This document shows, in pieces, positions 11,066-19,101 of a stretch of DNA of 22,487 nt. Position numbers and translations under genes: made by a program. This DNA is from a virus, in the IMG/VR virus record IMGVR_UViG_3300032334_000099, positions 1 to 22,487 of that record, one strand, 5' to 3'. The notes beneath the pieces are model-generated. The model worked only from the letters and a program-made list of their open reading frames with translations. It did not search any database and was not told the DNA's origin. Every line of letters starts with the position of its first letter. Positions within the stretch are counted from its first letter, which is position 1.

Positions 11066-11096
11066 AAAAAAATACCCGGTCAAAGCCGGGTATTTT
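11066..11096 (-). terminator. Intrinsic terminator after gp19
   Basis: Perfect 11-bp stem AAAATACCCGG (11069-11079) with CCGGGTATTTT (11086-11096), 6-nt loop, followed on the minus strand by seven T. It lies between the gp19 stop and the next gene and should end the gp19 transcript. Confidence 0.88.
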
Positions 11097-15522: not shown

Positions 15523-16144
15523 TTTGAGTATACAGTTGTTGTACTGTTCCATTATTATCTACAGTGTAGTTAAATGTCTGCCCAATCCAGGCCCACTCTG
15601 ATTGATGTATATTGGGATACTTTTGAGGCATAAGTTGGTGTGCGTCTTCTAATAGCCATTGTCTATCGGTTGGAGTAGTGTTTTCTGTTAATGCACAATC
15701 ATACCATTCGGGAAGTTCTCCTCGCTGCACCCAAACACATACGCCACCTGCTCTGCGTATTGCTGCAATTTCGTTAGGAAAGCGCACATCGCTAATAACA
15801 ATATCATCTACTGTTTTACGCAGTCTATTTTCCATGCTAGCAATCCAAATATCATCATGGAATCCTTGCCTGCACACTTCTGTTCCCCATAGTTGCAGCA
15901 TATACCTTGGAGTAAGACGTGGCATATCTAATCGTTTGGCCCACCATGGATCCACTTGTTCGCGCCAGGCGCGGGCTTTGGGTGTAAGTCCTTCTAGCAG
16001 TTCACGATCCCAACCAAACACTTGTGCTACTGCATCTTTGAGTGTGCCAGCAAAACTGTCACGTCTAAATCCATGCTGTGCTACAAGATAATTGGCTGCG
16101 GTGTCTTTGCCGCTTCCAATAAATCCGGTGATTCCTATAATCAT
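15485..16144 (-). CDS. gp1: Deoxynucleoside monophosphate kinase, T4 gp1-like
   Basis: A P-loop kinase that phosphorylates dNMPs for phage DNA synthesis. The P-loop GFIGSGKD is at residues 7-14; further blocks are FRRDSFAGTLKDAVA, a LID-like QLWGTEVCR, and DIVISDVRFPNEIAAI followed by GGVCVWVQR, all typical of the family. The protein has 219 residues against 241 in T4 gp1. I chose the Met at 16144 because it begins MIIGITGFIGSGKD and has AAGGGG 7 nt upstream; the longer frame adds 17 residues with no family support. A sigma70-like promoter (16167-16195) precedes it, consistent with early expression. It lies among late genes, unlike most metabolic genes, and converges on the HNH gene with a 38-nt overlap. 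Confidence 0.9.
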   Translation of the reverse strand: MIIGITGFIGSGKDTAANYLVAQHGFRRDSFAGTLKDAVAQVFGWDRELLEGLTPKARAWREQVDPWWAKRLDMPRLTPRYMLQLWGTEVCRQGFHDDIWIASMENRLRKTVDDIVISDVRFPNEIAAIRRAGGVCVWVQRGELPEWYDCALTENTTPTDRQWLLEDAHQLMPQKYPNIHQSEWAWIGQTFNYTVDNNGTVQQLYTQIKNLLPADFHAK

Positions 16145-16195: not shown

Positions 16196-16569
16196 ACACC
16201 GTACTTGTTTGTTTTCTTTTTGGCAACCGGACTTGCAGTATTTGTGCTTTTTAACTCTTGGCTTCGCATGTCGCCTTTGTTAACATCTTCGTAGTCGGCA
16301 CCCACTGCTTGATAAGCTTTTTTGAGCATTTCTTGATCAAGCTGACTGTAAGGTGCGGTTACTTTCCATTTACCCACCCAGGATTCTTTATCTGTGTCAG
16401 GAACTGTTTTGCCATCTGTACTAGCAACTGCTAGTCCCAAACGATACAATGTGTAATCACTGTTCCAGTGATCACCATCAGTAAACTTGTTTAAGCCACG
16501 AGTTGGCTGCTGTTGGCGCTTTGTTATTTTGCCCGCTGATGCTTCTGTAATAACTTCGTTAATTTTCAT
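16192..16569 (-). CDS. Conserved hypothetical protein (125 aa)
   Basis: I chose the Met at 16569: it begins MKINEVITEA and its ATG overlaps the gp13 stop as TAATG; a longer frame would add five residues inside gp13. The protein has blocks GKITKRQQQPTRGLNKF (residues 13-29), DYTLYRLGLAVASTDGK, ESWVGKWKVTAPY and a Lys-rich end NKYGV. I recall this family from T4-like aquatic phages, always short and of unknown function, often near gp13. The first nine residues end in ITE followed by Ala, fitting a capsid-targeting leader with a prohead-protease site. A packaged internal protein is possible; a neck-assembly partner of gp13 is the alternative. Confidence 0.78.
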   Translation of the reverse strand: MKINEVITEASAGKITKRQQQPTRGLNKFTDGDHWNSDYTLYRLGLAVASTDGKTVPDTDKESWVGKWKVTAPYSQLDQEMLKKAYQAVGADYEDVNKGDMRSQELKSTNTASPVAKKKTNKYGV

Positions 16570-17489
16570 TATCCAATTACCCAAGTTAATGGCAGCGATC
16601 CGTCAACATAATTTTTTAGCTGCTGTTCTAGATCTTTCATTTCTGCAATGGATTCTGCTTTTAAACTAGCACCATTTAACTGTGTTCCGCCCTGCGGCCC
16701 TGCAATACTGGCAAACTTTTCTCTAGCTTCTCCAAGAATGCTTTTGGCGAATGCATAAGCGTAATCTTGTAACCAAGGATATGCCTGATAGTCATTGAAC
16801 AACATACTGTCAGGTTTATAATTGTAGATATGCAACATGCAGTCTTCCATTTGACTTTCTTGCATGTTAACGCCAGCAAAAGGTATCTTACGTATTAGTG
16901 TAAGCTTTTTTGTGGTTTTGTTAAAGTGGAAGTTTAAGTATCCGCCAAACATTTTCATGCTCAATTTTTGGTAATCTACAAATAGTTCGTAGCTTAACAA
17001 GCCACCAACTCGTCCTGCCACTAACATGTAAGTGTTTAAGTAGCCGGAACTGAACGGTTCAAATTGGCTAGCAGTTGTACCAGTTACTGATCCAATGCCC
17101 CGACGATATGCAGCACGTACTTCCATGACAGTGTTAGGCAGTATGTATTCTTGCGTTTCAGGTTTGAGTTTTAGGAATGCGTAACTTTCTTCTTGGCTAT
17201 TGCTGGCCAATTGTCTGTAGCGATTTAGTGCCTGGTCAATTGAAAGTTCGTAGTGTTCTTTGTCAAGTTCCACATCAACAATGCCATCTGCTAAACGTAA
17301 TCTGATATAATCAATTATGTCTTTGCGATGATGATTATCTGTTTGTAAATCTGGAGCAGTGGTGTCGCCCAATTCCTCAGTAGGATCGTATGCAATGTGA
17401 CCCGAACCCGTGCCTGTTGCAGGGTTATATAAACTGTCTGTTATTAGTACGCCGTTAGCGTAAAATGAAGTAGTATCTGCTGTAGCCAT
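16569..17489 (-). CDS. gp13: Neck protein, T4 gp13-like
   Basis: A 306-aa protein matching T4/cyanophage gp13, which with gp14 forms the neck that closes the filled head and receives the tail. Recognisable blocks are KDIIDYIRLRLADGIVDVEL (56-75), HYELSIDQALNRYRQ, YILPNTVMEVRAAYRRGIGS, the Gly/Phe stretch QFEPFSSGYLN, MFGGYLNFHFN, and IYNYKPDSMLFNDYQAYPWL with GEAREKF and AGPQGGTQLNG near the end. The ATG has AGGA 7 nt upstream, inside the arm of a long inverted repeat with a late-type box in its loop. It is coupled to the 125-aa gene by TAATG. Unlike in T4, gp14 and gp15 are not downstream but on the opposite strand about 1.6 kb away. Confidence 0.85.
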   Translation of the reverse strand: MATADTTSFYANGVLITDSLYNPATGTGSGHIAYDPTEELGDTTAPDLQTDNHHRKDIIDYIRLRLADGIVDVELDKEHYELSIDQALNRYRQLASNSQEESYAFLKLKPETQEYILPNTVMEVRAAYRRGIGSVTGTTASQFEPFSSGYLNTYMLVAGRVGGLLSYELFVDYQKLSMKMFGGYLNFHFNKTTKKLTLIRKIPFAGVNMQESQMEDCMLHIYNYKPDSMLFNDYQAYPWLQDYAYAFAKSILGEAREKFASIAGPQGGTQLNGASLKAESIAEMKDLEQQLKNYVDGSLPLTWVIG

Positions 17490-17492
17490 TTA

Positions 17493-17523
17493 GGTGTCCT
17501 AGTAATGTATTTACCAGGACACC
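17493..17523 (-). promoter_or_regulatory. Inverted repeat enclosing a late-type promoter and the gp13 ribosome site
   Basis: GGTGTCCT (17493-17500) and AGGACACC (17516-17523) are perfect complements; after one A-C mismatch the inner GTAA/TTAC also pair, leaving a 5-nt loop. The minus strand reads GGTAAATACA across the inner stem, 6 of 8 to TATAAATA, and a start near 17501 would omit the 5' arm. AGGA of the gp13 ribosome site is in the 3' arm. Long read-through RNA would mask it; RNA begun at the late box would not. Confidence 0.65.
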
Positions 17524-17529
17524 GTGGAC

Positions 17530-18720
17530 TTAGTTGATTCGGAGCAGGATCATATCAGCGTTAATACGGCCGTTCCCGATGGTTTCTGTTGCTTTAATTT
17601 CCTCCAAGAACTTGCGTAGCTGTATTTTAGTGGCTTTTGCAAATTCTTTGAGTTTTTCGTCGGGCTTGCGTAATGTTTTGCCCACACTCTTTGCTAGGTC
17701 AAAGCCTGTTAAACTAGTGCCTTTGATGCCTAACGGTCCAGTTAAACTGTCAGCAATGTATTTGTAGAGCTTGCGTGTCTTGGTGTTATAGCACCAGACT
17801 TCCTGTGCGCCAATAATGTCCACAGGATTAATGCTTACTAACTTCAGCGTCTTTTCTTCCCGCATGTATTTGAGCTTGCCAACAAGTTTTTCTTTGTTAG
17901 GCGCACGTTTTACACGAGCTTTCTTTGTTGCTTTCTTGACTCCGCGATACTGTTCTAGTGCATCAAGTACGGCATCCAAAAACGCATAGTGACGTTTATA
18001 GTCTGCCGCTTTGAAATGTTTATAAGATTCAACATAGTCTTCAAACAGTCGACCTTGTGCTGCGCCTAGTTCTGCTTTACGAGCACTAAACAGTTCTACA
18101 AATTTGTTAATCTGACTTTGCGGTACTGTATTAGCAGTCAAGTAATCAAATGCCTTTGGATCAACGGTTCCGCCTGATACAACTTCGTCATACAAGCCTT
18201 CAAAGTGTGCCAAGTGCTCACTTGTTTTTTCGTTAAGTCGATCCTGGATAGTGGGTGCTCGTACTGTGGCTTTTTCAGCTGCTGGCATTGGTGCGCCAGT
18301 TGAACTTTCTACTACATCTCCGTCGTCTTGTAGCAATGCTATTTCAATACGCTCTCGAAGATAGCCAAGTTCTTTTTCACGTAGCGGCATGCCTTGACGA
18401 TTTGCCATAAGCAAGCCGTATGCTGTCATTGGGACTGCGCGATCTGGGCTGCGGATAAATGCACTAACTTGCTGTTTTGTATATTTGTTATCCTGCATCC
18501 ATTTAACCAGATGCTTTTTTAGATCTTTTTGGCTGTAGTAATAATTGTAATACGAAAAACTTTTACGCAAGAAGTGATCAAATTCGTCCTGGCTCATTGC
18601 TGTTGCACGTTCTGTATCCCAGACTGGTTCACTCCCGGTGTACTTCTCATCAGAGAACATGGGATCTCGAGATTTTTTGGCTACTTTTTTGGGTGCCTTT
18701 ACACTTTGCTGTAATGCCAT
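17530..18720 (-). CDS. Unknown protein, Lys-rich and helical (396 aa)
   Basis: No family is recognised with confidence. Residues 1-30 are basic; residues 50-100 contain FLRKSFSYYNYYYSQKDLKKHL and a helix; 100-170 include LRERIEIALLQDDGD and an Ala/Pro linker; 180-280 are helical; 270-300 are strongly basic (KKATKKARVKRAPNKEKLVGKL). Residues 295-396 look like an alpha/beta domain with LKLVSINPVDIIGAQEVWCYNTKTRKLYKYI, then KIQLRKFLEEI and a final strand MILLRIN. The basic tract suggests binding to nucleic acid. A perfect sigma70 promoter and an AAGGAG ribosome site precede it, so strong early transcription is expected, unlike its structural neighbours. I recall similar proteins in aquatic T4-like phages, always unnamed. 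Confidence 0.75.
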   Translation of the reverse strand: MALQQSVKAPKKVAKKSRDPMFSDEKYTGSEPVWDTERATAMSQDEFDHFLRKSFSYYNYYYSQKDLKKHLVKWMQDNKYTKQQVSAFIRSPDRAVPMTAYGLLMANRQGMPLREKELGYLRERIEIALLQDDGDVVESSTGAPMPAAEKATVRAPTIQDRLNEKTSEHLAHFEGLYDEVVSGGTVDPKAFDYLTANTVPQSQINKFVELFSARKAELGAAQGRLFEDYVESYKHFKAADYKRHYAFLDAVLDALEQYRGVKKATKKARVKRAPNKEKLVGKLKYMREEKTLKLVSINPVDIIGAQEVWCYNTKTRKLYKYIADSLTGPLGIKGTSLTGFDLAKSVGKTLRKPDEKLKEFAKATKIQLRKFLEEIKATETIGNGRINADMILLRIN

Positions 18721-19044: not shown

Positions 19045-19073
19045 ATTATACTATTTTTGGTATTTACTGTCAA
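19045..19073 (-). promoter_or_regulatory. Perfect sigma70 consensus promoter before the 93-aa gene
   Basis: TTGACA (19068-19073), a 17-nt spacer (19051-19067) and TATAAT (19045-19050): all 12 consensus positions match. Expected start is at 19037-19038, on the ATG of the gene. The -35 abuts the late-type box of the divergent gp14 gene. Confidence 0.85.
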
Positions 19074-19081
19074 ACTAAATA
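19074..19081 (+). promoter_or_regulatory. Late-type promoter before gp14
   Basis: ACTAAATA followed by CTAGA matches the late box at 6 of 8 positions and shares the CTAGA extension with the gp18 promoter. Expected start near 19087 gives a short leader with GAGG 8 nt before the GTG at 19102. Confidence 0.5.
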
Positions 19082-19101
19082 CTAGATACGAGGATTTTAT
19101 T

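Follow-up and report, generated by a model that had tools for sequence, protein, structure and literature searches.

Why should the ribosome site of a phage neck protein gene lie within a hairpin that also carries a late promoter? The question is raised by the window, by which we mean the whole 22.5-kb virus record analysed here, which holds a cluster of T4-like structural genes, most of it on the minus strand. The cluster encodes the neck protein Ad2/gp13, a 130-aa protein, a dNMP kinase, the tail sheath, the tail tube, and more connector and tail proteins. The gp13-like neck protein gene (head-tail adaptor Ad2, 306 aa; 16569-17489, minus strand; phrog_211, E 1e-33) groups with those of jumbo phages, e.g., PA5oct, GAP32, CBB, Munch and K64-1 (36-42% identity by tblastn), and megablast of the window against phage records returned zero matches. 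It lies 40 nt downstream of a same-strand gene of unknown function (396 aa; 17530-18720, minus strand; phrog_11903, E 4e-69), which is itself preceded by a conserved sigma70 promoter.

The minus-strand sequence GGTGTCCTGGTAAATACATTACTAGGACACC forms a hairpin at 17523-17493 that ends 3 nt before the gp13 start codon. Its 5' arm (17523-17511) and 3' arm (17505-17493) enclose a loop of 5 (17510-17506), and the 13 base pairs comprise 8 perfect outer pairs, one G-U pair and 4 inner pairs. The Shine-Dalgarno sequence, AGGA (17500-17497), is within the 3' arm, 7 nt from the gp13 ATG (17489). The RNA has a folding energy of -22.8 kcal/mol, compared with -9.4 (sd 2.5) for dinucleotide shuffles (z -5.5; 0/200). 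A first-pass annotation of this DNA had described 8-bp arms, a 4-bp inner pairing and AGGA in the 3' arm, all of which are present in this fold; of the span that it gave, 17491-17523, the boundary at 17523 is right and the one at 17491 is not, since the hairpin occupies 17493-17523. The hairpin matches no curated Rfam model, even at E values up to 1.

The late-promoter core, TAAATAC (17513-17507, minus strand), is located in the 5' arm and loop, with a predicted start near 17502-17500. The window's promoter reads GGTAAATAC, which is two letters short, at its beginning, of T4's TATAAATA. TAAATA is present in all 81 distinct gp13 leaders of the relatives, where the form that is kept is TAAATA[CT], and ahead of genes TAAATAC occurs more often in sense than in antisense orientation (17 vs 1 in GAP32, 13 vs 3 in G014, 10 vs 1 in G001). 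ATAAATA has been reported for structural genes of CBB and proposed as the late promoter of CBB and GAP32 (PMC5259590); the window resembles these phages in having the same type of core upstream of structural genes and a similar gene order. TAAATAC is not rare in the window (9 found vs 5.5 expected), as would suit a hairpin that arose by chance around a common A+T-rich motif, but the shuffle tests, together with the recurrence of the hairpin with unrelated arms and the compensatory changes described below, weigh strongly against this, and we find such an origin scarcely credible. Elsewhere in the window, at 19045-19082, a second perfect sigma70 promoter (19073-19045, minus strand) overlaps a same-strand TAAATAC (19066-19060) and is adjoined by a divergent TAAATAC (19076-19082, plus strand).

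In T4, late transcription begins 6 nt downstream of TAAATA. Using ViennaRNA, we computed the cost of opening the Shine-Dalgarno sequence for two transcripts, the read-through RNA and one that begins at this same distance from TAAATA. For the window's gp13, opening costs 13.9 kcal/mol in the read-through RNA, where the predicted P(unpaired) is 0.00, and 1.3 kcal/mol in the RNA from the predicted late start. The site is predicted to be closed in the first form and open in the second, which is the outcome favorable to the reading in the first-pass annotation, where folding of both forms had been suggested as a check. By the same measure, T4 gene e goes from 13.1 to 0.6 kcal/mol and gene 49 from 7.5 to 0.9, while T4 soc reaches only 1.7 kcal/mol, so that the measure misses some accepted cases. 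We call a leader significantly occluded if its occlusion exceeds that of 95% of the sequences obtained by shuffling its 5' part (5% level). Of the 81 distinct gp13 leaders from environmental relatives, 66 qualify, as do 0/11 control leaders with a late promoter (those of the tube, a 208-aa gene and a 475-aa virion gene). The remaining 15 gp13 leaders fall below significance (e.g., L038, L061 and L069), and occlusion is likewise not significant in the gp13 leaders of cultured PA5oct and Atu_ph07.

The presumed source of read-through RNA is the sigma70 promoter of the 396-aa gene (18778-18750, minus strand; TTGACA-17-TATAAT), which is a perfect 12/12 match, as had been noticed earlier, and is conserved, scoring at least 10/12 in 53 of 62 distinct leaders of relatives. 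Between this promoter and gp13, our terminator scan of the minus strand found no terminator-like site. The window's gp13 stem is followed by TAAATG rather than by a T run, and does not qualify as an intrinsic terminator, defined as a G+C-rich stem with a T run. These results bear on a different role for the hairpin, namely that its main effect is to end or process the early transcript from upstream, as an intrinsic terminator or RNase site, with the hiding of the ribosome site being incidental. GAP32, CBB, BF and L200 do have a T run between stem and ATG that could terminate transcription, but this run and any positive terminator call are lacking in the window, and the Shine-Dalgarno sequence is retained inside the stem in most clades; we regard this role as unlikely to be the main one.

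The 81 distinct gp13 leaders, gathered by four scans of viral contigs, have arms that differ completely between clades. The arms are GGTGTCCT/AGGACACC in the window's clade, GGTATCCT/AGGATACC, CCTTAAAGTGCAA/TTGTACTTTAGG and AAGTCCTGT/ACAGGACTT in other leaders, and TCCCCGTGTGCT/AGCATACGGGGA in L200. The cultured phages GAP32, BF, CBB, XbC2, Munch, K64-1 and Hallingskeid share this layout, again with different arms (CCCCTAAATATG..CATGTTTAGGGG in GAP32, CBB and XbC2; AGCACCTC..GAGGTGCT in K64-1), and opening costs of 14-17 kcal/mol. Within clades, paired positions change together; for example, stem columns 8-32 are GC in 25 sequences and AU in 12. Covariation exceeds that of shuffled alignments in the first clade (0.160 vs 0.122; 0/500) and in the second (0.217 vs 0.138; 0/500), and in both it is higher than in every slid register, so that the arms do covary in relatives, on which the initial proposal had been made to depend. 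These covariation counts are inflated by relatedness, while the rewriting of arms between clades is independent of that test. To judge from these alignments, the gp13 hairpin is conserved across giant T4-related phages although its letters were rewritten many times.

A near-symmetric site centered on a promoter core might also be expected of a DNA operator, at which a dimeric regulator would control the late promoter. The rewriting of the arms leaves no conserved operator, however, and G-U pairs on the mRNA strand outnumber their mirror, the A-C mismatches (34 and 24 vs 18 and 7), which speaks for pairing in RNA rather than in DNA. We consider an operator to be very improbable.

Our preferred reading, to which we assign a probability of roughly 0.86, is that the gp13 hairpin acts as a switch of the T4 e/soc/49/I-TevI type that times translation. 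Early RNA initiated at the sigma70 promoter (18778-18750) would read through the 396-aa gene into gp13, and the hairpin would form in this RNA and hide the Shine-Dalgarno sequence, so that early infection would yield no neck protein. In the late phase, a sigma factor of the gp55 type would initiate at the TAAATAC inside the hairpin, with a start near 17501, and the resulting RNA, being without the 5' arm, would have an open ribosome site from which gp13 could be translated. The layout, the folding energies, the conservation with compensatory change, the conserved early promoter and the late sigma gene in relatives support this switch; what we infer from them is where the transcripts start, that early RNA reads through and that its translation is blocked. 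Translation of gp13 only from late transcripts, as first proposed, would follow. With regard to the sigma factor, the late-sigma family phrog_12791/phrog_234 is found in relatives G002, G003, G014 and G015, and in GAP32, CBB, Munch, K64-1 and PA5oct. The gene is absent from the window, a 22-kb fragment, and was not found in G001 (the nearest long relative, itself a 137-kb fragment) or in G013. For CBB, a gp55-like factor has been reported, without gp33 or gp45 homologues (PMC5259590).

Hidden-ribosome-site leaders are known for T4 e, soc, 49, I-TevI and others, which are late genes that are present on long early or middle RNAs (PMC3014915, PMC2988022), and the original comparison with e, soc and 49 was the right one, with I-TevI a further match. 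As in T4 e, the read-through RNA would hide the ribosome site, the late promoter is in the 5' arm sequence, and the late RNA would be without that arm (PMC3014915); the opening costs are also similar (13.9/1.3 kcal/mol for the window, 13.1/0.6 for e). The differences are that the gene here is a neck protein gene in a jumbo-phage lineage, that the hairpin sequence is not the same, and that this case is a prediction from sequence. The gp13 leader fits the e type in every feature that can be assessed in this way except for the late sigma gene, which is absent from the fragment. It also has in common with T4 soc, 49, I-TevI, I-TevII, I-TevIII and segB, and with Aeh1 mobE, a late gene on a predicted polycistronic early or middle RNA, a hidden ribosome site and an adjacent late promoter (PMC2988022). 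Those are mostly accessory genes, whereas gp13 is a core virion gene with a leader conserved across the whole phage group. This is probably a known T4 device on a new gene, unusual in what it would guard and in its deep conservation. The text of the CBB paper (PMC5259590) never mentions a hairpin, and the hidden-ribosome-site layout of CBB and GAP32 is observed here; a literature search, with most subscription journals outside its reach, found no description of the gp13-type layout for jumbo phages. The results suggest that a regulatory device described for a few T4 genes, most of them accessory, protects a gene for a core virion component across a large group of jumbo phages, and that selection has apparently kept it while its sequence turned over. 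The relatives constitute a natural compensatory series for testing how RNA structure times gene expression.

Strong occlusion is also associated with TAAATA at other genes. Across six genomes or fragments surveyed with mechanical gene calls, occlusion of at least 10 kcal/mol was found for 12 of 165 genes with an upstream TAAATA and 8 of 814 others (Fisher p 1e-5). Besides gp13, the strongly occluded TAAATA genes include, in GAP32, those for virion structural proteins and for an HNH endonuclease and, in G014, those for a baseplate hub protein and a GH19-type endolysin. Genes with a hairpin showed no difference in having a co-directional upstream neighbor (15/21, vs 111/144 without a hairpin). 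The endolysin of G014, a 354-kb relative (L247:2937-3560, minus strand; start 122360), has a late-promoter hairpin (10.1 vs 3.1 kcal/mol) that parallels that of T4 gene e. Three GAP32 loci (L223:16348-16866, L232:10213-10521 and L234:18113-18643: a virion structural gene, an unknown gene and a KTSC-domain gene) have a strongly hidden Shine-Dalgarno sequence and an internal TAAATA.

Within the window, a weaker, A+T-rich hairpin (15120-15088, minus strand) with its own TAAATAC (15113-15107) is located upstream of the tail sheath gene. We rejected it as an equal partner of the gp13 hairpin, as its opening cost is only 1.8 kcal/mol, a value reached by 10% of shuffles, and only 20 of 59 sheath leaders pass. 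The sheath hairpin is strong (11-15 kcal/mol) in cultured jumbo phages other than PA5oct, and in GAP32, CBB, BF and Munch strong hairpins hide GGAGGA.

The leader of the dNMP kinase gene (ATG at 16144) looks like the inverse of the gp13 design, in that an early sigma70 promoter runs into a terminator-like hairpin that hides the ribosome site. The hairpin (16171-16145, minus strand) has the form AAAATGCTCC-TACAA-GGGGCATTTTTT; its 3' arm contains the Shine-Dalgarno sequence AGGGG (16157-16153), and a T run precedes the ATG. The sigma70-like promoter (16195-16167, minus strand; TTGACT-17-TAAAAT) has its -10 element at the base of the hairpin; its start would fall inside the hairpin, so that early RNA would be open. 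An occluding hairpin is present in 50 of 77 distinct dNMP-kinase leaders, and all 50 have the T run, a sigma70-like promoter (by a loose pattern) and an open site in RNA from that promoter; covariation of these stems was left uncounted, as the clades are aligned out of register with each other. Any RNA coming from the late genes upstream would be terminated or stay silent at this hairpin. In cultured jumbo phages, terminator-like hairpins precede the kinase gene with the Shine-Dalgarno sequence outside them, and thus the exact mirror form is seen only in environmental relatives.

We tentatively suggest, at slightly less than even odds, that hairpins with an internal promoter are two-way temporal insulators, with a late promoter at early-to-late boundaries (gp13 and, weakly, sheath) and an early sigma70 promoter at the late-to-early boundary before the dNMP kinase gene. 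If this is true, the inverse form would shield an early gene, that of the dNMP kinase, from late read-through. No description of the inverse form was found in the literature search, again with most subscription journals beyond its reach; the kinase leader suggests a mirror-image device serving an early gene, which is a more novel point than the gp13 switch. Further along the cluster, an inverted repeat with a T run (about 11072-11096), located after the tube gene and before the next gene, has the look of an intrinsic terminator by eye.
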